A stretch of 23,580 nt of DNA from a virus. Positions within the stretch are counted from its first letter, which is position 1, and the number at the start of each line of letters is the position of its first letter. A program made the translations under genes and the position numbers. The notes beneath the pieces were generated by a model. That model did no database searches. It worked only from the letters and a program-made list of their open reading frames with translations, and was not told the origin of the DNA. The DNA lies in IMG/VR virus record IMGVR_UViG_3300033148_000585, positions 1 through 23,580 of that record, one strand, 5' to 3'. This document shows positions 5,888 through 23,580 of the stretch, piece by piece.

Positions 5888-7840
5888 CTATGTCAGTCTT
5901 ATTTTTAAAGTACCGCTTGTGTGATATAAACCACCAATTGGTACACCAGCCGCTCCCGCTGCTGTATCATCTGCATAGTTTTTAGCTACTGTTTCATCCA
6001 GTACAACCTGACTCGCTGCAGTAGCTGTTTTATTTGTAACGTGAATTGCGTTTACACTTGAAGAAGCATAACCTGCTCCAACCATAAATGCAGTTTCACC
6101 TTGACTTTGTACTGTTGCACTAACATCATTGTATGCTCCAGTAATTACACCTCTAACATCTGTACTTGCAGGAATACCCACAAGTTCATAACCAATCATC
6201 GCTGTTCTTGAAGTACCTCCAGAAATATCGTTATTTTCACCTATTAAATATAAATATTCAATACTTGAAGAAACTGTACTTCCTGTATTGCTTTTACCAA
6301 TTGCAACACTATATCCATTTTTTAAACTATTACTTCTACCAATAGCTACAGCATTACCTTCATCTTCAATATTATTTCCTACTCCAATTGCTGTTGAATA
6401 ACCAGAATTATCTATGGTATTGCTCTCTCCTAATATAGCGCTTCTAGTTCCATTTCGACTTATTGTTGAATTAGAACCATATATTTGTGCGTATGCACTA
6501 CCTGAGCCAGATATTGTAGAGCTACCGCCTATAACTACAGTGGTACCACTTAACGTTGAAGATGAGTCTCCTACTACTAAAGAGTTCGAACCAGATGCTG
6601 TTGAAGCTGAACCGAAAACTACCGAATAACTACCTCCAACTGTATTTCCAGAACCATGAGTAAAAGAAAAGCTTCCACTTACTGTATTTGCACTACCTCC
6701 AGCAAAAGAATGATTCGCAGATACTGTTTGGTTATAACCTACTGCCACACCACCTGGCGCATTACTTAAAGTATGTGCTTGACCTATTACTGTACTAAAA
6801 TTTGATGAATTACTAATTGTATTGTCATATCCAGCAGAAAAAGCATAATTTCCTCCACTTATTGTAATTTCTCTTCCTAAAGCTATAGCACCAAGTCCAC
6901 TTACACTATTTGAATTACCAATAGCAATTCCTTTTTCTTGTCCATTTACAGTATTTAAATTACCTATAGCAATTTGTTCAAGCCCAATAACACCTCCACT
7001 ACCTGAAGCATTGTTGTCATAACCAATTGCAATGTTTTTAGTTAAACCAGCAAAATTACTGTATCCAATAGCGATTCCATAAGTTGCATTAAATAAACCA
7101 TCTCCAGGCACATTGTTATCTTTACCTATAGATATAGAATAGTCTGCTTCAGCAATACTACCTTCTCCAGCAGCAAAAGAGCTTATTCCTCCTGACCATA
7201 CATTTTTTCCAAAAGCTACTGCATTTTCTCCAGTTGCTCCTTTTTCTGTTCCTACTACTGTACTTACAGAAACATCAAAAGCATTTAAACCTATGTTACC
7301 ATAGTTTGCAGCATCTCTTCCTGTTTTTACAATACCATCGCCATTGCCTTCGTCTAAAACTTGAAAAGGACTTACAGCTGATGGAACAGATGTTACCCAA
7401 GATGCAGTTGTTCCGTCAGAAAGTAATATAGCATTTGCCGCTCCTATTGCCAGCTCAGATTTTTTACCTGATGAATTACCAATCCAAATACTACCATAAG
7501 TTAAGTCTTGTACTGAATCATCATCAGTCCAAAGAACCTGACCTGAAGCATTAGAAACTAAAACTTGATTAGCAGCACCAATATTCCCTGCATTATCCTT
7601 TACAGGACCACCTAACTGAATACCTCCATAAAACAATGTTTCTGTAGATGTAGTATTCCCAGATAAAGTTACATAAGCTAAAGTTGGAACTGTTACAGTG
7701 TTAGTAGCAAATAATTGACCAATAGATTGTAAAGTAATCGTATTGGTATTGTTATTATTACTAACATCAGTCCCTATTATATAATCAGTTAACTGGGGTG
7801 TTATATTAGGGTATGCGGTTGTGTTGCTAATTCTTGCCAT
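5888..7840 (-). CDS. Tail fibre/adhesin with 14-residue YadA-like head repeats
   Basis: This 650-residue protein is probably a trimeric host-binding fibre. Its N-terminus (MARISNTTAYPNITPQLTDYI) resembles the virion-attachment starts of phage fibres. Residues about 206-590 are a run of short repeats with the pattern SxxxGxxNTVSGxx, for example SFAGGSANTVSGSF, SFTHGSGNTVGGSY and SVVFGSASTASGSN, each 14 residues. This is the left-handed beta-roll seen in YadA-type adhesin heads. The last 60 residues (VVLDETVAKNYADDTAAGAA then GVPIGGLYHTSGTLKIRLT) match a C-terminal cap common in marine phage fibres, from memory. There is no S74 chaperone domain, unlike the other two fibres here. The ATG lies 6 bases after the stop of the coiled-coil gene. 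Confidence 0.8.
   Translation of the reverse strand: MARISNTTAYPNITPQLTDYIIGTDVSNNNNTNTITLQSIGQLFATNTVTVPTLAYVTLSGNTTSTETLFYGGIQLGGPVKDNAGNIGAANQVLVSNASGQVLWTDDDSVQDLTYGSIWIGNSSGKKSELAIGAANAILLSDGTTASWVTSVPSAVSPFQVLDEGNGDGIVKTGRDAANYGNIGLNAFDVSVSTVVGTEKGATGENAVAFGKNVWSGGISSFAAGEGSIAEADYSISIGKDNNVPGDGLFNATYGIAIGYSNFAGLTKNIAIGYDNNASGSGGVIGLEQIAIGNLNTVNGQEKGIAIGNSNSVSGLGAIALGREITISGGNYAFSAGYDNTISNSSNFSTVIGQAHTLSNAPGGVAVGYNQTVSANHSFAGGSANTVSGSFSFTHGSGNTVGGSYSVVFGSASTASGSNSLVVGDSSSTLSGTTVVIGGSSTISGSGSAYAQIYGSNSTISRNGTRSAILGESNTIDNSGYSTAIGVGNNIEDEGNAVAIGRSNSLKNGYSVAIGKSNTGSTVSSSIEYLYLIGENNDISGGTSRTAMIGYELVGIPASTDVRGVITGAYNDVSATVQSQGETAFMVGAGYASSSVNAIHVTNKTATAASQVVLDETVAKNYADDTAAGAAGVPIGGLYHTSGTLKIRLT
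6075..7226 (-). repeat. Degenerate 42-base (14-residue) repeats in the 650-residue fibre
   Basis: This part of the fibre gene encodes roughly two dozen degenerate units of 14 residues, with some longer insertions. Conservation is at the protein level (xAxGxxNxxSG) and the DNA copies have diverged, so it is an old protein repeat and not a simple-sequence tract. Confidence 0.75.
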
Positions 7841-9421: not shown

Positions 9422-9775
9422 TTAGTTTGAGGTTGCTCTTCTTGTAGCTTGCATTTTATATCTATTGATATATTCCTGAATAACACTAGGCTCTACTTGT
9501 AGCTTAAATGATAAATCAGCTGCCCATTGACCTCTAGGTTTTTGTGTCTTACTATCGTATAAAATAATTGTGGGTACTGATTTAATTTGATTTTTAATAT
9601 TTGCTGGTTGGTCCTCTAATTTAACTTTTAATATTTCAACACCTCTTAATTGTGATAAATATGCATAATCATTATCAGAGTTCCATTTTGAATTAATATG
9701 TAACAATGTCATATCTTGAGCATTAGTTAAGTAACTAACAAACAAAATAAATATTACATACATTAAATGTCTCAT
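9422..9775 (-). CDS. Secreted thioredoxin-fold protein lacking CXXC
   Basis: The 117-residue protein starts with a clear signal peptide (MRHLMYVIFILFVSYLTNAQ, cleavage near Ala19-Gln20). The mature part follows the thioredoxin pattern: a strand (MTLLHINSKW), a helix, a second strand (VEILKVKLED) and then SVPTIILYD with the cis-proline signature at 67-69. Where thioredoxin has WCxxC this protein has W31-N-S-D-N35, so both active cysteines are replaced and the protein contains no cysteine. It cannot be a normal disulphide oxidoreductase. It probably acts in the periplasm as a binding or structural protein. It lies inside the lysis cluster, its ATG overlaps the preceding stop (ATGA), and from memory similar proteins occur in other uncultured marine phages. 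Confidence 0.75.
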   Translation of the reverse strand: MRHLMYVIFILFVSYLTNAQDMTLLHINSKWNSDNDYAYLSQLRGVEILKVKLEDQPANIKNQIKSVPTIILYDSKTQKPRGQWAADLSFKLQVEPSVIQEYINRYKMQATRRATSN

Positions 9776-10681: not shown

Positions 10682-13600
10682 TTATTTATTTATTTGAGAC
10701 TTTAAATTTACGATTTCTTTTTGTAATTCTTTTATTGAGTTAACCAATATAGGAATTAAATAATCATTAGTCATTTTTAATTTATCCTCATTATTATTAT
10801 CTACTATAACTGGATTTTCTCCTTCTAATTCTAAAACATCTTGTGCTAAAAATCCATATCTTTCAATCCCATCAGCTTCTTCTGATTGTCTTTCTTTTTT
10901 AAACTCGTAAGAAACAGGTTTAAGTTTTTCAATAAATTCTAAACCTTTGTCAAGTTCTTTTATTTTAGTTTTATCTCTTGCATCAGAAACAGTAGTCCAT
11001 CCTATTTGAATGTAAGCTGCAGTATGGGATGTATTACCCATTTGTATTTCATTCGAGCCTGTTGTTACAATACCTAATGAATTTGTTGTTGAAGCATTTC
11101 TACCTGCATTTGCACCAATTAAAATATTGTTACTTCCACTCGTTAATTCATAAGCCGCAGAAATACCTAAACCTATATTACTATTTCCAGTAGTAGCTGA
11201 AGTTGGAGCTCCCTGTCCCATCGCACTCGCACCAATAGCTATATTGTTAAAACCTGTTGAAATATTACCTCCTGAATTTATTCCCATCGCAACATTGTTC
11301 CAACCTGTTGTTATATGATATAAGTTAGCGTGTCCCACACCAGAATTATTAAATCCAGTGCTTAAAGTAAGAGCTGCTTGATAACCAGATATTACATTTG
11401 AACTACCTGTAGTCGCAGATGCGCAGGCTTGATAACCACTTATAACATTATTTGTAGCAGTGGTCATATTTAGCCCTGCATTAGAACCTATTAATGTGTT
11501 ACGACCTCCACTTGTTAAATCTTGACCTGCTGTAAAGCCCATCACAGTATTATCACTTGAGGTCATAACGTGATTGTCACAGGCTTGTGAACCCATAACT
11601 GTATTTCTATTACCTACAGTAGAAAATCTACCTGTTATTGCGCCAACATAGGTGTTGTTTTCTCCTGTGGTATCTCTACCTGCTAAACCACCAACAAAAG
11701 TGTTGTAAAGGCTAGTTGCATTGGTTTGACCTGCTTGATGACCTATACAAACATTATAATTAGCGGTTGTTATAGTACCCCCTGCATTGTATCCCAATAA
11801 ACTATTATTACTCCCTGTTGTAATATTTTGTCCTGCATCTCTACCAACTGCTGTATTGTAATCACCACCTCTTATATCTCGTAAAGCTAAAGTCCCAACC
11901 GCTGTATTATTAATTCCTCCTTGTATTTCGTATCCTGCTGCATATCCTAAAAACGTATTAGCAGAACCATTATCGCCAGTCGTACCTCTACCTGCAGCAT
12001 AACCTACAAATGTATTGTCTCCTACGGTAGAAGATAAACCTGCCTGGTAACCTACAGCTACACTATTTGTTCCTGTAGCATTATTTTGTAAAGCTGAATT
12101 ACCAATAGCTACATTGTTACTTGCTGTAGTAACATAATATAAAGCATCTCTACCAATAGCCGTGTTAGCTGACGCTGTAGTAGCAGTATACATACTATTT
12201 CTACCTACGGCTACATTAGAGCCTCCAGTAGTCAAATGTCTCATTGATTCAAAACCTACAGTTGTATTTTCACTTGCTGTTGATATATTTCTTAAAGTTC
12301 TAAAACCGACTGCTGTATTTCGATGAGCTGACTGTCCGTTTGTACCAAAACCTGACTGCCATCCAACAAGTGTATTGTTGTCTCCATTACCATAAGTCAT
12401 TGCGCTTGTACCAACTACAGTATTATAATTACCAGATGTAACTTGCTGACCTGCATCGTATCCTATATAACAAGGTTCTGCTCCTGAAGTATGGAATCTT
12501 CCTGCTGTTCTACCTATAATAGTAGCATAACTCATCGAAGTTGCTGCTTCTCCTGCAAATCTTCCAATAATAACATTATAACTACCTGTTGTTAAACTGT
12601 TAGCTGTATTTTCTCCAACAATTACGTTATCTACTCCTGAAGTAACGGCTACACCTGCTGCATATCCAACGGCTGTGTTTCTTGAACCATTACAATTTTC
12701 TAAAGCATCGTTACCAACAGCTGTATTATAACTACCTACACCTAATTGCATAGCTGCCCTACCAAGTGCTGTATTACCTACTGAAGTTGTAGCTGAACCT
12801 AAGGACACTTCCCCTATAGCTGTATTTGACTGACCTGTAGTTAAAGCATCTCCAGAACCTCTACCAACTACTGTATTATTATAACCTGTTGTAATATTGA
12901 AACCTGCTTGATGCCCAACGGCTGTGTTATTGTTACCACTTGATAAACTATACATAGCTCCTCTACCTACAGCTACAGAATTTGTAGCAGCACCACCATT
13001 TACTCTACCTCCTGACTGTGAACCAACAAAAACATTTTCTCCTCCTGTGTTTAATCTACCTGCATAAAATCCTATATGTACATTTTCATTATTACTTGCC
13101 GTAAATCCTGCATCGTAACCTACATAAGTATTATAAATACCTCCTGTATTGTTATATCCTGCTTGTGCACCTATTGCAACATTATTGCTACCTGTTTGAT
13201 TTTCATATAAAGAACGATAACCAACTGATGTATTAGAAGCTCCTGATGTTGTATCATATTGCGAACCGTTACCTACTGCTGTATTAAAACTTGCCGTTGT
13301 ATTACTTTCAAGTGCTGCTCCACCGACTGCTGTGTTATAACCTCCTGTTGTATTAGAGTATAATGTTAATCTACCAGAAGCGTGATTTTCTGAGCCTGTA
13401 GTATTAAATCGCAAGGCCAGATAACCAAAGGCACTATTGTAATTACCTGAAGTATTTGCGTGTAATCCTAAATAACCTACAGCAGTATTTTGTATGCTTG
13501 TAGTTGTTGAACCTAAAGCTGCATAACCAATCGCTACTAAGTCATTTGAAGTCGTAACATATTCTCCTGCAGCCATACCAATCATTACAGAGTAACTCCC

Positions 13601-16600
13601 TGTAGTCATACGATTACCTGCTTGTGCACCTATTGCAACATTATTGCTACCTGTTGTAACGGCTTCTCCTGAAGCTTTTCCTAAAAATGTATTTTGAGTA
13701 CCAGATGTAATTGCTTGTCCTGATGTTCTACCAATTAAAGTGTTAGAATTCCCTCCAACTATTGCTTTTCCTGCTTGTCCTCCAATCGCTGTATTATCAT
13801 ACCCTGTCGTAATTGCTTGACCTGTATCTCTACCATATAAAGTATTATGCGAACCACCAGTTATATTATCTCCTGAATTATAACCTATTGAAGTGTTAAA
13901 TTGCCCTGTTGTTGAAACATTACCTGCTGAGAATCCATAAAAAGTATTACCATTATTTAAACTTTCAGTATTATAAATTCTGCCACCAGAATCAATACGC
14001 ATTCTTTCTGCTGCAGCATCCTCGTCATAAAATCTTAATGAACCATCTGTTAAACTTGAAATTAACCAATCTCGACCTGCAATAGATGATAATTCTATAT
14101 TCGCATCACCAGTAGTCGCTTTAAATCTTGCCCTGCTGCTTGTAACATTTACATCTAATTTAAAACTTGGAGTATCTCCAATACCTACATTACCTCCAGA
14201 TGTAATTGTCATCCTTGCAGAAGCATCTGGGTCTGCTACTATACTTGAAGTATTAGTTGCAAAAAATAAATTACCATTATAATAACTAAATATACCTGCT
14301 CTTGTATCGGTTGTAGATGTAATAGCATCTCCTCTTGTTGAAAATCCAATTCCCCAAGCGCCTGAGCTATTTAAATTAGCATTATTAGGTCTATGTATTC
14401 TTAAAGGTACGTTTTCGTTACTGTATATGTCTAATTTATGATTAGGCGATATAGTTCCTATTCCTACTCGTCCTGAACTGTCTATAGTTAAATTAGTTGA
14501 CGATAAAGTATTTGAAGTACCTAAAGACATTTTGGAATTTTCTGCTATTACATATACAGCAGTATCATTGTCATCAATTTGTATTCTACCTCTATTATCT
14601 GTGCTTTCAAATCTTGCTATAGTATCACTATTACCTGCATTTACGTCAAGTGAGACAGCAGGCGAAGAAGTTCCGATTCCTACTCGACCTGAACTGTCAA
14701 TACGCATTCTTTCATTATTGACATTTGTGGCAAATCTCATTGCATTGTCTGCGTGTAAATACTGAATAAAACCTGCTTGAACACTTTCAGGGTCTTGAAA
14801 AGCTATTGTAGCAGCAGCAGTATTTGGCGACTGTAAAGTTAATCCTACATTTCCGCTATTTTCTATTATTAATTCATCTGCATTAGTCCAAGCAGAACCT
14901 GCACCACTTGAACCATTTTCAATATGTAATTTTGCACTAGGCGAAGAAGTTCCTATACCTACTCGACCAGAACTATCTATAGTCATTTTAGTACTATTGT
15001 CAATACTAAATATCATTGATGTTCCTGCAACTGCATTTGACCTATCAGCAAAAAATCCCATTGCAGTATTTGATGTTAATATTTCACTTATATTTCCACT
15101 ACTACTATCTTCTATGTTTATTTGATAACCCTCAGATGTTACTTTTATACCTGAACTTGTTGTTTCAAACTTTTTAGAGTTGTCGTAATATAAGTTTACT
15201 GCACCATCACTTATGGCATCTATCATTGACTCGTTAGAGTTATTTCTAATTTTTAAGAAACTTGATTTTATAAATAAACTACCTGTGCCATCTTCATCAA
15301 TATAACTATTGCTACCATCGTGATATATTTGTAGGTCTCTACCTGTTCCAAAATCAGCAGTTATATTGTCATTATGCCTTGTTTTTCTTAAAAACAAAAA
15401 TTCTTCACTACTACCATCAATTCTCACATAATTTACAACTCCTCCGCTACCATCGTCTGTTCTAAATATAATGTCTTTGTCGTCTGAATAATTTGTAAAA
15501 TATAAGCTACCTGTATTGTTATCAACAAAAGCATTAGTGCCATTGTGATATATTTTTAAATCTGAATTTGTGCCAAATATTGCTCGACTATCATCTACAA
15601 AAGTAATATCATCTCCTGTGCTTACTTCTATATCCGTTCCTCCTGTAGTGTTTCCATTTGCTAATACTTCTGATAAAGTATCATTTGCGCCTATCTGTGA
15701 ATCTACATAATCTTTAACGGCAGCACTTGTAGGTATGCTTGTATCATTATCATTTGCAGGAATACCATCTGCTTCATCAACAAACTTTGTAATAGTAATT
15801 AAATTTGTACTATCTGTTAATGATGTACTCCATGCCAAATCACCTGTAACGTCAGCATCTCCTGTGACATCTAAGTCTCCAGAATTTCCAATCGTTACTG
15901 TAGTTCCGTCATCCTCAACCAGTCCTGTAGATAAAGTCGTAGGACCAGTCCATTTTGCTAATTTATTTGTTGCACCTGTTCCTGTAATTGCTGACGTATT
16001 ATCTATTTTTTGCCATGTATCTGTTCCTCCAGCTTCTACAAATATTGCCCAATCACCCACTTGCCAATCTGTAATCCCATCTAAGTTCGTACTACCTGCA
16101 ACACTAACAATATAAAAATGTCCTGTTGTTCCAGAACCACTTGTTAATGTTGGGGTGTTTGTACTTGCATTCCAAGTTCCATTATAAACCAAACCTTGTG
16201 GTAATTGTGTTATCTGAGCTTGTAAATATCCAAACGCTTCAAGTATTGTATCTGTAGCTGCAATATTTTGAGCTGTTCCTAAGTTAACACCTGTTATTAG
16301 TTTTCCTGTTACTGTAGTGTCTGCTATGGTTGTAGAGATAGCCACATTGCCTCCTGATGTGTAGGTATATGGTCCTCCAGTAGAAGTAGTATCACCAGTC
16401 AAGGTAATATTACCTGATGCAGCTAAAGCTGTAGCTGTGTCTGCATTTCCTTGTAACGCTCCAACAAAAGTTGTAGAGGTCACCGAAGTTAGTCCTGTTA
16501 TTGTAGTGTCTAAGTTTACTGTAATTGTTTCATCAAAACTTTGATTTAATGTAAAATCTCCTCCTCCATTTAAATTACTTCCAGCTGAAATAGTAATTGT

Positions 16601-18208
16601 ATTGTTATTTACAGCTGGATATGTTGGCGTAGGTACTGTTACTGTTTTAAGATTGATTGCAGTTATATGTCCTTCTGTTGAAGAAGTCACACTATCTACT
16701 GCCGTAAACGTTCCGCCAAACGCAGGTGAATCAGTAGACGTTGTATCAGTTCTCGATACTGAATCGTGATTAAATGTTATTGTTTCATTTAATGCTTGAT
16801 TTAATGTAAAGTCTCCACCGCCATTTAATAATGTTCCCGCATCTAATGTTATCGTTGCATCACTTGGTGTGGGAAGCGTAACTGTTTTTACATTAATAGC
16901 TGTAATGTGTCCTTGAGATGATGAAGATACTGAGTCTACTGAAGTAAATGTACCTCCAAATGCAGGAGATGATGATGAAGTTGTGTCTGCTCTTGATACG
17001 TTATCATGAACAATGTCTAAATTTTGATTAAGTGCTGTTGTTGTAATAACTGCTCCACCAGTAATGCTTAAAGCTTGACTGTCTAAATCAACTTGTCCAG
17101 TACCGCTATCTCCTGTAAAGTCTAAGTCCTGAGCAGTAACTTGGCTATCTACATAAGCTGTTGTTGCTACTTTAGTAGAATTGTCTCCTGCAAGCTGAGT
17201 AACTGCTGTAGTAGCCGAACTAATTGTACCGTCTAGCTGTCCATCAAAAGTAGTCCCAAAATAAGTTCCAGTAATAACAACTGAACTTGGTAGTCCAATT
17301 GTAATTGTTTGTCCACTTGCTACAGTAGTTGTTTGATTTGCAGTTCCCGCTATAGTTAAAGCTTGTGAATCTAAATCAACAGAACCTGTACCTGTGTCAC
17401 CTTGTATATCTAAATCTTGAGAAGTAACTTGACTATCTACATAATCTTTTACTGCTGCTGATGTTGGAATAGAAGTATCATTGTCATTCGCTGGTATTCC
17501 ATCTGCCTCATCTACAAACTTAGAAATATTAATAGACTCTCCAGTGTCTTGTAACGTTCCAAAAGCAACTGTTCCAGAAACTTCTGCATTACCAGTGATA
17601 CTAACACCTGTATTAATTGTGTTTAATTTAATGGCACCATAATAATTTAATTGAACCTGTCCTAAGCTTCCGTCTGCAACAATGTAAGGAGTAGTTGCCC
17701 CACCACTTCCATTGTCTGCTGAAATAATTACATCCTTGTCTGCAATTAAACTAATAATTTTTAAATCTCCTGTATTGTTTGTAATATATCCATCTGTGCC
17801 ATGATGGTAAAGTAAAAGCTCATTAGAAGCTCCTATCTTTAAATATTTATTTGTTCCAGAAACAGCAACGTCTCCGTTAAAAGTATTTGTAACTGTATTA
17901 GAATTTTGAGTAATACTTCCTGTAACAGTTAAGTTGTTTCCAATTGTTACATCATCAGGTAATCCAATCGTTAATGTTTGTGCACTTGCTGAAGTTTCAA
18001 TCTCGCTTGCAGTTCCAACAATACTAAAAGACTGTATAGCTAAATTTACACTCCCAGTTCCAGAATCTCCAATAAAATCTAAAGAAGAAAACGCTCCCAA
18101 AAAATTTGTAGGAGTTATTTTTACATTCTCAAGACCATTGTATCCAACTATAAATTGAACATCTGCACTGGTTGTCTTTGTATTAAATTGTGAAAACTTT
18201 ATTGCCAT
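10682..18208 (-). CDS. Giant S74-terminated tail fibre with 17-residue beta-roll repeats
   Basis: At 2508 residues this is the largest gene here and probably a trimeric host-binding fibre. The start, MAIKFSQFNTKTTSADVQFI, looks like a virion-attachment end. Residues to about 900 are beta-rich modules, including two TSIPTSAAVKDYVDSQ blocks, two related SPAFGGTF...HITAIN blocks and a WxVGDWAIF module (about 670-740). Four SSGRVGIGTSSP-type modules follow (roughly 1090-1370). Residues 1421 to about 2395 hold about 57 copies of an NTAVGxxAGxxxTTGSx repeat. The end is a peptidase S74 domain with Ser2408 and Lys2413 in SDARDK at the known Ser-Lys dyad spacing. It should chaperone trimer folding and then cleave itself off as about 101 residues, ending in a coiled coil (KELQKEIVNLKSQINK). 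Exact receptor and virion location are unknown. Confidence 0.9.
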   Translation of the reverse strand: MAIKFSQFNTKTTSADVQFIVGYNGLENVKITPTNFLGAFSSLDFIGDSGTGSVNLAIQSFSIVGTASEIETSASAQTLTIGLPDDVTIGNNLTVTGSITQNSNTVTNTFNGDVAVSGTNKYLKIGASNELLLYHHGTDGYITNNTGDLKIISLIADKDVIISADNGSGGATTPYIVADGSLGQVQLNYYGAIKLNTINTGVSITGNAEVSGTVAFGTLQDTGESINISKFVDEADGIPANDNDTSIPTSAAVKDYVDSQVTSQDLDIQGDTGTGSVDLDSQALTIAGTANQTTTVASGQTITIGLPSSVVITGTYFGTTFDGQLDGTISSATTAVTQLAGDNSTKVATTAYVDSQVTAQDLDFTGDSGTGQVDLDSQALSITGGAVITTTALNQNLDIVHDNVSRADTTSSSSPAFGGTFTSVDSVSSSSQGHITAINVKTVTLPTPSDATITLDAGTLLNGGGDFTLNQALNETITFNHDSVSRTDTTSTDSPAFGGTFTAVDSVTSSTEGHITAINLKTVTVPTPTYPAVNNNTITISAGSNLNGGGDFTLNQSFDETITVNLDTTITGLTSVTSTTFVGALQGNADTATALAASGNITLTGDTTSTGGPYTYTSGGNVAISTTIADTTVTGKLITGVNLGTAQNIAATDTILEAFGYLQAQITQLPQGLVYNGTWNASTNTPTLTSGSGTTGHFYIVSVAGSTNLDGITDWQVGDWAIFVEAGGTDTWQKIDNTSAITGTGATNKLAKWTGPTTLSTGLVEDDGTTVTIGNSGDLDVTGDADVTGDLAWSTSLTDSTNLITITKFVDEADGIPANDNDTSIPTSAAVKDYVDSQIGANDTLSEVLANGNTTGGTDIEVSTGDDITFVDDSRAIFGTNSDLKIYHNGTNAFVDNNTGSLYFTNYSDDKDIIFRTDDGSGGVVNYVRIDGSSEEFLFLRKTRHNDNITADFGTGRDLQIYHDGSNSYIDEDGTGSLFIKSSFLKIRNNSNESMIDAISDGAVNLYYDNSKKFETTSSGIKVTSEGYQINIEDSSSGNISEILTSNTAMGFFADRSNAVAGTSMIFSIDNSTKMTIDSSGRVGIGTSSPSAKLHIENGSSGAGSAWTNADELIIENSGNVGLTLQSPNTAAATIAFQDPESVQAGFIQYLHADNAMRFATNVNNERMRIDSSGRVGIGTSSPAVSLDVNAGNSDTIARFESTDNRGRIQIDDNDTAVYVIAENSKMSLGTSNTLSSTNLTIDSSGRVGIGTISPNHKLDIYSNENVPLRIHRPNNANLNSSGAWGIGFSTRGDAITSTTDTRAGIFSYYNGNLFFATNTSSIVADPDASARMTITSGGNVGIGDTPSFKLDVNVTSSRARFKATTGDANIELSSIAGRDWLISSLTDGSLRFYDEDAAAERMRIDSGGRIYNTESLNNGNTFYGFSAGNVSTTGQFNTSIGYNSGDNITGGSHNTLYGRDTGQAITTGYDNTAIGGQAGKAIVGGNSNTLIGRTSGQAITSGTQNTFLGKASGEAVTTGSNNVAIGAQAGNRMTTGSYSVMIGMAAGEYVTTSNDLVAIGYAALGSTTTSIQNTAVGYLGLHANTSGNYNSAFGYLALRFNTTGSENHASGRLTLYSNTTGGYNTAVGGAALESNTTASFNTAVGNGSQYDTTSGASNTSVGYRSLYENQTGSNNVAIGAQAGYNNTGGIYNTYVGYDAGFTASNNENVHIGFYAGRLNTGGENVFVGSQSGGRVNGGAATNSVAVGRGAMYSLSSGNNNTAVGHQAGFNITTGYNNTVVGRGSGDALTTGQSNTAIGEVSLGSATTSVGNTALGRAAMQLGVGSYNTAVGNDALENCNGSRNTAVGYAAGVAVTSGVDNVIVGENTANSLTTGSYNVIIGRFAGEAATSMSYATIIGRTAGRFHTSGAEPCYIGYDAGQQVTSGNYNTVVGTSAMTYGNGDNNTLVGWQSGFGTNGQSAHRNTAVGFRTLRNISTASENTTVGFESMRHLTTGGSNVAVGRNSMYTATTASANTAIGRDALYYVTTASNNVAIGNSALQNNATGTNSVAVGYQAGLSSTVGDNTFVGYAAGRGTTGDNGSANTFLGYAAGYEIQGGINNTAVGTLALRDIRGGDYNTAVGRDAGQNITTGSNNSLLGYNAGGTITTANYNVCIGHQAGQTNATSLYNTFVGGLAGRDTTGENNTYVGAITGRFSTVGNRNTVMGSQACDNHVMTSSDNTVMGFTAGQDLTSGGRNTLIGSNAGLNMTTATNNVISGYQACASATTGSSNVISGYQAALTLSTGFNNSGVGHANLYHITTGWNNVAMGINSGGNISTGFNNIAIGASAMGQGAPTSATTGNSNIGLGISAAYELTSGSNNILIGANAGRNASTTNSLGIVTTGSNEIQMGNTSHTAAYIQIGWTTVSDARDKTKIKELDKGLEFIEKLKPVSYEFKKERQSEEADGIERYGFLAQDVLELEGENPVIVDNNNEDKLKMTNDYLIPILVNSIKELQKEIVNLKSQINK
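11035..13948 (-). repeat. About 57 degenerate 51-base (17-residue) repeats in the giant fibre
   Basis: Counting by eye gives about 57 units with the pattern N-T/V-x-x-G-x-x-(A/S)-(G/L)-x7-8, most exactly 17 residues, a few 15-19, and two near the end longer (22 and 26). Examples are NTLYGRDTGQAITTGYD, NVAIGAQAGNRMTTGSY and NTAVGHQAGFNITTGYN. The DNA copies have diverged although the protein pattern is kept. Confidence 0.85.
15695..15787 (-). repeat. Copy A of a 31-residue identical block in the giant fibre
   Basis: This stretch encodes a 31-residue block from KFVDEADG to KDYVDSQ that is identical in protein to the block at 17429-17521. The two DNA copies differ at 23 of 93 bases, all silent. 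Confidence 0.85.
17429..17521 (-). repeat. Copy B of the 31-residue identical block
   Basis: The partner of the block at 15695-15787. All three serines use the other serine codon family (TCN against AGY) in this copy, so the copies are protein-identical but not a recent DNA duplication. Confidence 0.85.
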
Positions 18209-19440: not shown

Positions 19441-20964
19441 TTAATTACTTTCTAAAGCCTCCACTCTAGCTTTTAATTCTTGAACTGCTTTGATTAACAT
19501 AGGCACAAAAACAGAATACTTTACTGCTTTTGTCTGTTCTTCTCCTGACTCATAAACCATTCCAGGAAATATTTCCTCTAACTCTTGTGCAATAACTCCT
19601 AATTGTTTTTGGTCATCCCCTATGTAATTAAAATTAACAACTCTCACTTGAGATAAATCATCAAGCTTTGCACTAGCATCTGCAATGTTTTCTTTTAAAT
19701 TAACATCAGATAGCTGTCCATAAGCATTGTTAAAGTTTTCAATATTTCCGTTTGAATATATTTTTATTCTTTCAGTTGTACCCCCTTCTCCTAAAAAGAA
19801 TCTTGAAGTAGTGTTATTGTGGTCTGTTTGATTTACAACATTAAGCCCATAAACATTTCCAGTAGCACTTGAGTAAACCATCATTGTTGGGTCCCCATCT
19901 GTGTTATTTTCAAAAGAATGAAATGTATAACTTCCCCAAGTTAATGAACCATCAGCCGATGCTTTTGAATATCCTGTAGTTTTAGTTCCTTGAGTTGTTG
20001 TTTCAAACTTTTTAGAGTTATTATAGTATAAATTTACTGCACCATTAGCAATACCATCCATATACCATTCTCCACTCGTACTTCTTAAATTTAAACTATT
20101 ACTCGCTTGTATAAATAAATTTCCTGTTCCCTCATCACTTATATAGCTATTACTACCATTGTGATATATTTGCAAATCACTTCCAGCACCAAATTTAGCT
20201 ATACTACCATCTGCAAAATTTATATTATCTCCACTACTTACACTAATATCCGTACCTCCAGTTGTATTACCATTAGCTAACACTTCTGAAAGCTCGTTGT
20301 TATTTCCTATTGCTGAATCTACATACTCAGTAGTTGCTACTTTTGTTGAATTATCTCCTTGTGTTTGTGTGTTCGCAAATACATTTGCTGAAAAAGTAGT
20401 ATCTGTTGTAATATCATTTGGAACATCATTCGTTCTTAAAATACTTGAAACAATAATAGAACCTGCATTTCCACCTGAAACTTTCCCAACCTTTCCAACA
20501 TTCTGAACTAAATTTGTTCCACCAGGTCTTGATAAAGTTAATCCTCCACCAGCTTTTACATAAATTGTATCGTTAATTGTAGGAGTTGTTCCATCAATAG
20601 GGTCTGTTTCAATGTTAGTTAAAAGCCCCCCTGTTATAACAAATCCTTGTTCATTATTCTCTAAATCTGTTTTTAATAATCCTGTTGCTGGCATACGAAC
20701 TGGATTAGAAGCATCTGCTACTGCTACTTGAACTTTTGTTGAAGCTCCTACTGTTCCTACAATACAAACAGGTGTTCCTTTTGGAATTAAAGCTCCTGAA
20801 ACATTTTTACATTCAATTTCTACAATAGTAGCTGAATTATTAAAGTTCGCTATATCTTCAATTGTATATGCATCTCTTAATGCATCTAACATTGCAGACC
20901 CATAGTCTTTTGTATTTACTTCTGGAGCGACTCCATGAAATTTAGTTCCTGCTGGTATTGCCAT
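19441..20964 (-). CDS. S74-terminated tail fibre/spike, 507 residues
   Basis: A second S74 fibre. The N-terminal part (about 1-180) contains IPKGTPVCIVGTVG, GLLKTDLENNEQGFVITGGL and INDTIYVKAGGGLTLSRPGG, a beta-rich domain common in phage fibres and spikes. Next is a GDNSTKVATTEYVDSAIG link, then modules shared with the giant fibre: ELSEVLANGNTTGGTDI, SDLQIYHNGSNSYI and GAVNLYYNNSKKFETT. The end is a peptidase S74 domain of a different subfamily, LSDVNLKENI, with Ser419 and Lys424 at the catalytic spacing and a Q-LGVIAQELEEIFPGMV core. Self-cleavage before Ser419 would release about 89 residues. It probably forms a trimeric receptor-binding spike. It starts 4 bases after the stop of the 78-residue gene. 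Confidence 0.9.
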   Translation of the reverse strand: MAIPAGTKFHGVAPEVNTKDYGSAMLDALRDAYTIEDIANFNNSATIVEIECKNVSGALIPKGTPVCIVGTVGASTKVQVAVADASNPVRMPATGLLKTDLENNEQGFVITGGLLTNIETDPIDGTTPTINDTIYVKAGGGLTLSRPGGTNLVQNVGKVGKVSGGNAGSIIVSSILRTNDVPNDITTDTTFSANVFANTQTQGDNSTKVATTEYVDSAIGNNNELSEVLANGNTTGGTDISVSSGDNINFADGSIAKFGAGSDLQIYHNGSNSYISDEGTGNLFIQASNSLNLRSTSGEWYMDGIANGAVNLYYNNSKKFETTTQGTKTTGYSKASADGSLTWGSYTFHSFENNTDGDPTMMVYSSATGNVYGLNVVNQTDHNNTTSRFFLGEGGTTERIKIYSNGNIENFNNAYGQLSDVNLKENIADASAKLDDLSQVRVVNFNYIGDDQKQLGVIAQELEEIFPGMVYESGEEQTKAVKYSVFVPMLIKAVQELKARVEALESN

Positions 20965-21812: not shown

Positions 21813-22247
21813 ATGCATAATGACTACTTAAAATATTGGCGAGTTATCCGTCAATATATCAAAATCAAATACAATCTCACTCAATCAGATTTAGACATTC
21901 TTTTATTTTTAAAATCTGAATCTTATTTTTCTAAAGACAAGTTTTTAGAGTTTGATGAAATACTCAGTTGGGACAAACAACGTTTTGAAAAACTAAGACA
22001 ACAAGGATGGATTGAAGTGTTTAGAAAAAGAGTTGGTAAACACAAAGCTTTGTATCAACTATCTTTTAAATCAAAAAGAGTATTAAACTCTATTTATAAA
22101 AAATTAAATGGGGAAGAAATACCGACCAGCCCCTCACAAAATAAAATGTTTGCAAAGAATGTATCGTACTCAGATAAAGTTTATAGGAATATGATTATAG
22201 AAATGAATCGTTCTATAAAACAACAACGACATCTCTCTCATGAGTAA
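21813..22247 (+). CDS. Winged-helix, MarR-like transcriptional regulator
   Basis: This is the only plus-strand gene. The 144-residue protein looks like a winged helix-turn-helix DNA-binding protein: helices in YWRVIRQYIKIKYNLTQSDL and DILLFLKSESYFS, a recognition-helix region around DEILSWDKQRFEKLRQQGW (about 48-66), and a wing-like strand pair IEVFRKRVGKHKALYQLSF (about 67-85). The C-terminal part is basic. MarR-type proteins bind palindromic operators, often in their own promoter, and a palindrome lies in the gap 18 bases upstream. It may therefore control itself and the divergent late genes. The start ATG is not preceded by a Shine-Dalgarno. Its end overlaps the convergent groES by 35 bases. 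Confidence 0.8.
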   Translation: MHNDYLKYWRVIRQYIKIKYNLTQSDLDILLFLKSESYFSKDKFLEFDEILSWDKQRFEKLRQQGWIEVFRKRVGKHKALYQLSFKSKRVLNSIYKKLNGEEIPTSPSQNKMFAKNVSYSDKVYRNMIIEMNRSIKQQRHLSHE

Positions 22248-22470
22248 TCGTTACTTTCTCTCCACTGATAATCATTGTATAAGACTGACGCTTGTCAAAA
22301 TAAATCGTATCACCTTTTTTAATTACAGTGACATCACTGCCTGGTTCTAATACTTCAGCCTTTTGATAACGCAATCCTTTTGTGTCTTCATGAGATAGTA
22401 ATAGTCCTGAGTCTGTCTCTATCTCTTCTTGAATATTTTTTACAACTATATTTTTACCTATCGCTTTCAT
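22213..22470 (-). CDS. groES: GroES-like co-chaperonin (short Cpn10)
   Basis: The 85-residue protein follows the Cpn10 order: MKAIGKNIVVKNIQEEIETD (first strand), a mobile-loop segment DSGLLLSHEDTK, AEVLEPGSDV, IKKGDTIYFDK, and a closing VTITHERDVVVVL. It is shorter than GroES of E. coli (97 residues) and near the size of phage co-chaperonins. GroES caps the GroEL chamber during folding. The gene begins 17 bases inside the groEL 3' end, so translation may be coupled. The order EL then ES is opposite to the usual bacterial groES-groEL operon. The 3' end runs 35 bases into the convergent regulator gene. Confidence 0.85.
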   Translation of the reverse strand: MKAIGKNIVVKNIQEEIETDSGLLLSHEDTKGLRYQKAEVLEPGSDVTVIKKGDTIYFDKRQSYTMIISGEKVTITHERDVVVVL

Positions 22471-22966
22471 AAGAACGTGCCATTGTGATTATTGCATTAG
22501 TAGAAAGAATGGTTACAGCTACACTCACTGCGTTCTGTAATGCACTCTTTGTTACTTTCATTGGGTCTATAACGCCCATCTTGATAAGATTGCCATACTT
22601 TTCATTCTTTAAATCATAACCCTTTTGCCAACCTTTCACATCTTTATAGACTTCTTTAACGTCTAGTCCTGCATTTGCGAGTATCTGAGTTAAAGGTGCC
22701 TTTAAAGATTGTGATAAAATTGCGTAAGCAATTTTTAAATTTTTATTTTTACCCTTCTTCTTCTCAAATTCCTGCGCCATTCTATACAAAGCAAGCCCAC
22801 TTCCAGGTAATATCCCTTCTTCAAGTGCAGATTTTACAGCACATACTGCATCATCTACTCTATCATACAACTCTTTCTGCTCTAAATCTGTATTACCACC
22901 TACATATATCACACCGATTCCACCCGTCAAAGATGCAATCCTAGACTCAATAAACTCTTTGTCTGC
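22454..22966 (-). CDS. groEL: GroEL 3' part, in the -1 frame relative to the 5' part
   Basis: Read in this frame, the protein continues the chaperonin with ADKEFIESRIASLTGGIGVI, then the equatorial-domain motif RVDDAVCAVKSALEEGILPG (Asp equivalent to the ATP-hydrolysis Asp398 of E. coli is kept), and ILANAGLDV and GNLIKMGVIDPMKVTKSAL before ending MARSYESDR. GGG near residue 415 of E. coli is GSG here, and the usual Gly-Gly-Met tail is missing. There is no credible start codon: the ORF could open only at TTG 22930, within the motif. It joins the 5' part by a -1 frame change or by a missing base. Its stop lies inside groES. Confidence 0.85.
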   Translation of the reverse strand, partial: ADKEFIESRIASLTGGIGVIYVGGNTDLEQKELYDRVDDAVCAVKSALEEGILPGSGLALYRMAQEFEKKKGKNKNLKIAYAILSQSLKAPLTQILANAGLDVKEVYKDVKGWQKGYDLKNEKYGNLIKMGVIDPMKVTKSALQNAVSVAVTILSTNAIITMARSYESDR

Positions 22967-23580
22967 TTTTTAGTAGCGTTCTCATGAGCAACCCATAGCT
23001 CTTTGACTCTTTCTTCTATCTCTGTTTGGTTAGTTGTTGTTTCATCTTTAAGGATGACCGTTGAATCTCGACCAACTATCACCTTAGCCGCATGACCCAA
23101 ATCAGTAAAATTAATTATACTCAAGTCATCCCCTGTCTTCTCGCTAAAGTATGTAGCCCCCACAGATAAAGCAATGTCTTGCATCAGCTCGTGTTGCTTA
23201 TATCCAAATGATGGAGGAGTGATAGCACATATCTTCAAGTTTCTTTTCATTACGTTTGCTGCCAATGTGTTGGTCACATTGTTTGCACAAGGCGCAATAA
23301 TCAAAAGCTTCTTGCCTTCAGCTATGATGGGTTTTAAAATATTCTCTATTTGTAATATATTATTTATCTCTGCATCCGACACAAGAATATGAACATCCTC
23401 TAAAATACACTCATCTTTCTTTTGGTCGTTGATAAATAGTGGTGACAAATAGCCCCTATCCACTTTTATTCCGTTAGTTGTTTCAAAATACGTTTCACTA
23501 GTCTGGGACTTTTCTACTGTAACAATCCCATCCTCGCCTACACTTTCGTAGACATCTGCAATTATTTTCCCAATCTTATT
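22927..23580 (-). CDS. groEL: GroEL-like chaperonin, 5' part (partial at right edge)
   Basis: The frame is open to the window edge and codes for the end of the intermediate domain and the whole apical domain of a Cpn60. It begins around GKIIADVYESVGEDGIVTVE (matching E. coli around residue 160) and reads VDRGYLSPLFIND, KKLLIIAPCAN, HELMQDIALSVGATYFSE and VIVGRDSTVI, ending in LLSLGLHL and a premature stop. The last residues after ENATKK are out of the GroEL frame, which resumes at -1. Chaperonin folds phage proteins such as capsid subunits, with GroES from the next gene. The start codon lies right of the window. About 375 residues are covered when both parts are joined, against about 366 expected from E. 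coli for the same span. Confidence 0.9.
   Translation of the reverse strand, partial: NKIGKIIADVYESVGEDGIVTVEKSQTSETYFETTNGIKVDRGYLSPLFINDQKKDECILEDVHILVSDAEINNILQIENILKPIIAEGKKLLIIAPCANNVTNTLAANVMKRNLKICAITPPSFGYKQHELMQDIALSVGATYFSEKTGDDLSIINFTDLGHAAKVIVGRDSTVILKDETTTNQTEIEERVKELWVAHENATKKQTKSLLSLGLHL
22966..22972 (-). other. groEL frameshift site, A5G run
   Basis: On the minus strand the codons read ACT AAA AAG, then CAG in the 5' frame. The homologous frame resumes at GCA, taking the last G of AAG as its first base. Either one A is missing from an A6 run, or the ribosome slips by -1 on AAAAAG. A fully canonical A_AAA_AAG heptamer is not present, since the first base is T. Confidence 0.8.

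Follow-up and report, generated by a model that had tools for sequence, protein, structure and literature searches.

Does a phage fibre repeat of 17 residues build the same beta-roll as the 14-residue layers of YadA-type adhesin heads, or a roll of another pitch and twist? The question is raised by a giant fibre gene in the virus record IMGVR_UViG_3300033148_000585, the 23,580 bases of which form the window analysed here. An earlier note on this DNA had counted about 57 copies of a regular unit, NTAVGxxAGxxxTTGSx, in the encoded protein, had set it apart from a 14-residue YadA-like unit in a neighbouring fibre, and had proposed a wider or differently twisted roll and a very long rod.

The giant fibre and its surroundings

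The terminase encoded in the window is 77% identical to that of the uncultured 60.9-kb podovirus MW202828 and approximately 45% identical to those of Flavobacterium elemo phages, and Cellulophaga phages match it too. These matches point to a host that is probably a member of Bacteroidota. A phage-encoded GroES (85 aa) and a GroEL interrupted by the window end lie at 22213-23580 (-), in the same order as in MW202828; the GroEL frame looks split near 22930, perhaps by a frameshift or through a sequencing error. Inside the lysis/fibre cluster, 9422-9775 (-) encodes a putative secreted thioredoxin-like protein of 117 aa.

Table 1 Fibre genes of the window and parts of the giant fibre
Feature	Position	Strand	Basis
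Giant fibre gene, 2,508 aa	10682..18208	-	Open reading frame
N-terminal ~40 residues, probable virion attachment segment	18089..18208	-	Weak likeness to the N-terminus of an MW202828 fibre
Residues 41-1420, non-periodic fibre modules	13949..18088	-	Two stretches in common with the 507-aa fibre, 62-64% identity
56-coil array of the 17-residue repeat, residues 1421-2377	11078..13948	-	Periodicity, profile; model of coils 1-16
Residues 2378-2407, array end and linker, predicted mature C-terminus	10988..11077	-	Sequence; putative S74-family cleavage
Peptidase_S74 intramolecular chaperone, Ser2408-Lys2508	10685..10987	-	Pfam PF13884; Ser-Asp start at 2408
650-aa fibre, YadA-like 14-16-residue layers, ~residues 204-555	5888..7840	-	Lag, YadA_head, layers
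507-aa second S74 fibre, modules in common with the giant fibre	19441..20964	-	PF13884, E 1.4e-12

The giant fibre (Table 1) matches PHROG tail-spike and virion-structural families (best 6e-107). Pfam PF13884 covers its residues 2408-2460 (E 8.8e-12; 45.6 bits, above the cut-off of 22), and a Ser2408-Asp motif, the candidate self-cleavage site, stands at the start of this domain. S74 domains trimerise, template the preceding beta-structure, and cleave themselves off, as established for endosialidase-type fibres. The array stops 31 residues short of this chaperone and so probably makes up the distal shaft in a tail fibre that is a homotrimer. The C-terminal outer-membrane anchor that defines a trimeric autotransporter adhesin was not found: Pfam gave no YadA-anchor match at the C-terminus of the giant fibre, where the S74 domain lies instead.

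At a comparable place, MW202828 carries a fibre gene of 281 residues (L003:13561-14403) that lacks the array and has a faintly similar N-terminus. The alignment of the two N-termini is weak (z 3.3, with the best shuffle scoring slightly higher). The comparison fits an exchange of the fibre body on a conserved anchor, the N-terminal likeness alone not being significant. Fibre-body exchange on a conserved anchor is the usual sign of host-range adaptation. The modules shared by the giant and 507-aa fibres, which align over 66-79 residues, suggest that fibre genes of a single phage have recombined with each other.

The 650-aa fibre is YadA-like, with layers much less regular than the array of the giant fibre. 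Its best autocorrelation lag is 14 (z = 5.7, residues 181-560), as expected from the unit described earlier, but the period is not uniform, since the layers run from 14 to 20 residues; the YadA_head match (E 1.7e-4) falls below the Pfam cut-off. The protein ends in GVPIGGLYHTSGTLKIRLT, and its fibre region weakly matches UspA1, AtaA, and a ryegrass ice-binding protein. An alignment-free model suggested a right-handed beta-helix; this was rejected as unreliable, as the model was poor (pLDDT 65) and contradicted the YadA-like sequence matches. No relatives of this fibre were found in IMG/VR besides another contig of identical sequence, which leaves its model unusable; the comparison of 14 with 17 residues therefore rests on the solved YadA and BpaC heads.

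Periodicity and spread of the 17-residue repeat

Autocorrelation over residues 1421-2391 of the giant fibre gave z = 22.8 at lag 17, 16.4 at lag 34, and 12.9 at lag 51, with every other lag at z ≤3. A repeat profile finds 54 copies in the array, compared with a mean of 0.2 matches in the shuffled protein, and two degenerate coils bring the total to 56; the earlier count came close, its 57th copy being the degenerate last turn. The 55 spacings between neighbours are 17 in 43 cases, 16 in seven, 19 in three, and 18 and 22 once each, and never 14. The array consensus, N-T-A-V/I-G-x-x-A-G/L-x-x-x-T-T-G-S-x, is essentially identical to the unit first described, the regularity of which is confirmed. 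Gly5, which corresponds to the invariant Gly8 of the roll, is kept in all 56 coils and in approximately 100% of 3,851 family coils. Where the spacing is irregular (16, 18, 19, or 22), the change in length always falls after coil position 9, never within the NTAVGxxA half.

Tandem Repeats Finder detected no tandem array at the DNA level. Adjacent coils are approximately 50% identical in DNA, and coil identity barely drops with distance along the array. A recent tandem duplication of DNA was rejected on these grounds. With diverged DNA and no tandem array, the repeats are therefore old, and their period has been kept at the protein level.

The repeat is widespread. We found it in 379 IMG/VR stretches and in 106 stretches of bacterial and archaeal species genomes, mostly Bacteroidota. 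A step of exactly 17 residues separates adjacent copies 4,002 times in a set of 176 distinct reading frames, the longest array having 154 copies. When the loop is disregarded in the search motif, the relatives show 1,765 spacings of 17 versus four of 14, and YadA-head controls show 92 of 14 versus three of 17, which bears out the separation of the two units. The repeat is common to Prochlorococcus phage P-SSM2, pelagiphages, roseophages, and Bacillus, Staphylococcus, and coliphages. A C-terminal domain resembling the S74 domain of the giant fibre is present in 94 of the 156 frames with an in-locus stop. Some Bacteroidota chromosomes (L117 and L143; G002 and G001) hold 11-21 matches each to the array, and the module is therefore not solely a phage part. 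One viral fibre of 3,109 residues (L029) has approximately 154 coils and would measure approximately 74 nm if it formed the same roll.

Sequence searches of Pfam, NCBIfam, and the PDB with the giant fibre returned no relative of the array, and neither did a PDB search with a 61-row profile; a seven-block alignment was too divergent to serve as a query. We found no solved structure and no Pfam or NCBIfam model covering the 17-residue repeat. Pfam YadA_head (PF05658) does not match the giant fibre and is absent among the first 25 of the 36 families listed for 61 relatives. Searches with the whole array and with the short fibre matched only another contig of identical sequence. Searches of the open-access literature turned up no account of a 17-residue roll. 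Left-handed beta-roll entries of the NCBI conserved-domain database may include some of these proteins.

Predicted fold and the three extra residues

AlphaFold2 was given coils 1-16 as a single chain with a gap-free 61-row alignment of 16-coil blocks. One of the five models was confident (pLDDT 84.7, pTM 0.81), the others scoring pLDDT 73.6 down to 55.5. Its top PDB match is the BpaC head 7o23, at a modest Foldseek E of 3.8e-3 (probability 0.96), and realignment of this predicted single chain to 7o23 gave Z 19.2 and 2.2 Å over 225 residues, in agreement with the beta-roll first proposed. Other YadA-type heads (YadA, CbpF, AtaA, and BoaA) gave Z 13-15.6, and other folds gave Z 12-15; as a predicted single chain, the array superposes on solved left-handed roll heads. 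Independently predicted viral models in BFVD agree (best TM 0.93, 0.9 Å, 257 columns, E 1e-13), and the array model also has matches among predicted proteins from Bodo saltans virus, Tupanvirus, and a chlorovirus.

GlmU and LpxD are also among the structure matches (Z 12-13), which would suit a left-handed beta-helix of the hexapeptide (LpxA/GlmU) kind, made by a monomer. Such a helix has approximately 18 residues per coil, close to 17, and each repeat would form one three-sided turn; 14 of the 61 relatives touch Pfam LbH_EIF2B, weakly (best E 3e-4) and without a match in the giant fibre itself. The BpaC superposition is nevertheless far better than these (Z ≤13, ~3 Å, 150-190 residues), the array consensus shows no hexapeptide motif, and the S74 domain indicates a trimer, so that we regard the hexapeptide helix as unlikely.

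The BpaC alignment spans all 272 model residues against the contiguous chain residues 48-272, with 47 model residues unpaired. As 16 × 14 = 224 and 16 × 17 = 272, one coil corresponds to one layer, with approximately three residues left out of each. Because 16 coils superpose on 16 BpaC layers at 2.2 Å, the pitch and twist of the modelled array look the same as in the 14-residue roll, with the edge bulged; a modestly wider cross-section is plausible, and the proposal of a different twist is not upheld. The 17-residue class is sharply apart in length from the 14-residue class, and Pfam YadA_head fails to recognise the array, as might be expected of a genuinely different trimeric fibre fold with a pitch or twist unlike YadA. 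However, the 16-on-16 superposition, albeit of a predicted single chain, leaves little room for such a fold, which we consider improbable. With 17 residues in 43 of 55 spacings, and not 14 (rarely 15) per layer, the array is therefore a variant of the roll fold and not a standard member.

We thus favour, with good though not full confidence, a left-handed parallel beta-roll of the YadA/BpaC type with 17 residues per layer, which would form the probably trimeric, S74-folded distal rod of the fibre. For the 14-residue layer, 92 control coils give the consensus G x N/S x V/T A I/V G x x A x A x; for the 17-residue unit, the 3,851 family coils give G x N N T/V A V/I G x x A L x x N T T. Layer positions 1-11 agree between the two classes, positions 5-8 and 11 of the control-coil motif having been fixed beforehand, and the following three positions become six. 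In a profile alignment of 17-mers with YadA-head 14-mers, coil pairs with coil, weakly (P 0.005), and the three-residue gaps fall after the A11 region, also weakly. Eleven positions per layer (G1 x N/S3 x T/V5 A6 V/I7 G8 x x A11) would fit the known roll, and the three additional residues would follow position 11, ahead of the next layer's glycine. These extra residues appear to form a loop in the latter half of every coil. Layers of the BpaC head rise by 4.8 Å and turn by 5.7 degrees, and loop insertions occur there between layer positions 14 and 1 (PMC9543794); the bulge at the coil edge would leave the rise of approximately 4.8 Å unaltered. Position 7 of the roll is close to the three-fold axis (PMC9543794), and the equivalent coil position 4 is hydrophobic in 95% of the coils of the giant fibre.

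Positions 9 and 12 of the coil vary together. Family-wide, Asn12 accompanies Leu or Met in position 9, and Gly9 is often found with an Ile, Leu, or Val in position 12 (Fisher p 4e-91, not a strict probability as the coils are related); by locus, the trend holds in 41 and is reversed in eight. In the giant fibre, the mutual information of the two positions exceeds all 500 permutations, the two-by-two test is borderline (p 0.057), and Gly9 coils cluster together (p 0.02). From these sequence patterns, we infer one hydrophobic plug per extension, supplied by either position 9 or position 12. This hydrophobic swap is a new detail. We lean, somewhat better than evenly, towards the broader reading that the 17-residue coil is an uncurated sub-class of trimeric beta-roll, used as an extendable rod in phages, Bacteroidota chromosomes, and some giant viruses, with the plug from position 9 (AL..NTTG) or 12 (AG..ITTG).

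For the giant fibre, we infer a homotrimer in which the S74 chaperone would fold the rod from the C-terminus, trimerise, and then cleave itself off. Three chains would probably twine into a rod of approximately 27 nm (56 × 4.8 Å). The very long rod of the earlier note is a relative matter: the predicted length would not be exceptional among relatives of up to 154 coils. The array may serve as both distal shaft and receptor-binding surface, with the variable positions 6, 7, 10, 11, 16, and 17 facing outward in stripes.

Comparison with known fibres and adhesins

Hundreds of viral and bacterial stretches encode the repeat, but with no curated family or solved structure to cover it, such proteins are annotated as hypothetical or as tail fibres. 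A beta-roll with a regular three-residue bulge would give a structural reading for all of them, together with a length ruler of approximately 0.48 nm per 17 residues. It could also offer a simple modular rod for design and help in tracing fibre exchange between phages and Bacteroidota.

Among phages, the same 17-residue consensus is present in approximately 22-30 copies in PSSM2_298 of P-SSM2, gp52 of Pelagibacter phage HTVC111P, gp55 of Venkman, and gp48 of CRP-7. Many of the relatives end in an S74-like domain, as the giant fibre does; the family majority reads AL..NTTG, whereas the giant fibre, with its 56 copies, prefers AG..[IV]TTG. A pelagiphage fibre with a YadA domain is known (PMC3909814). 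The 650-aa neighbour is similar to it in being a phage fibre with a YadA-like repeat region, and differs from the giant fibre in its irregular 14-16-residue layers and its lack of an S74 domain.

The predicted fold is similar to the rolls of the BpaC head (7o23), the YadA head (1p9h), and other trimeric autotransporter adhesins. The array shares with the BpaC and YadA heads the invariant glycine at position 8, Thr/Val at 5, Ala at 6, Ile/Val at 7, Ala at 11, and a glycine at 1, as well as the long uniform array and insertions at the same stretch of the layer. Unlike these heads, it goes unmatched by Pfam YadA_head, has 17 residues per layer rather than 14 (15 in UspA1), and belongs to a phage fibre that ends in an S74 chaperone instead of to a membrane-anchored autotransporter.
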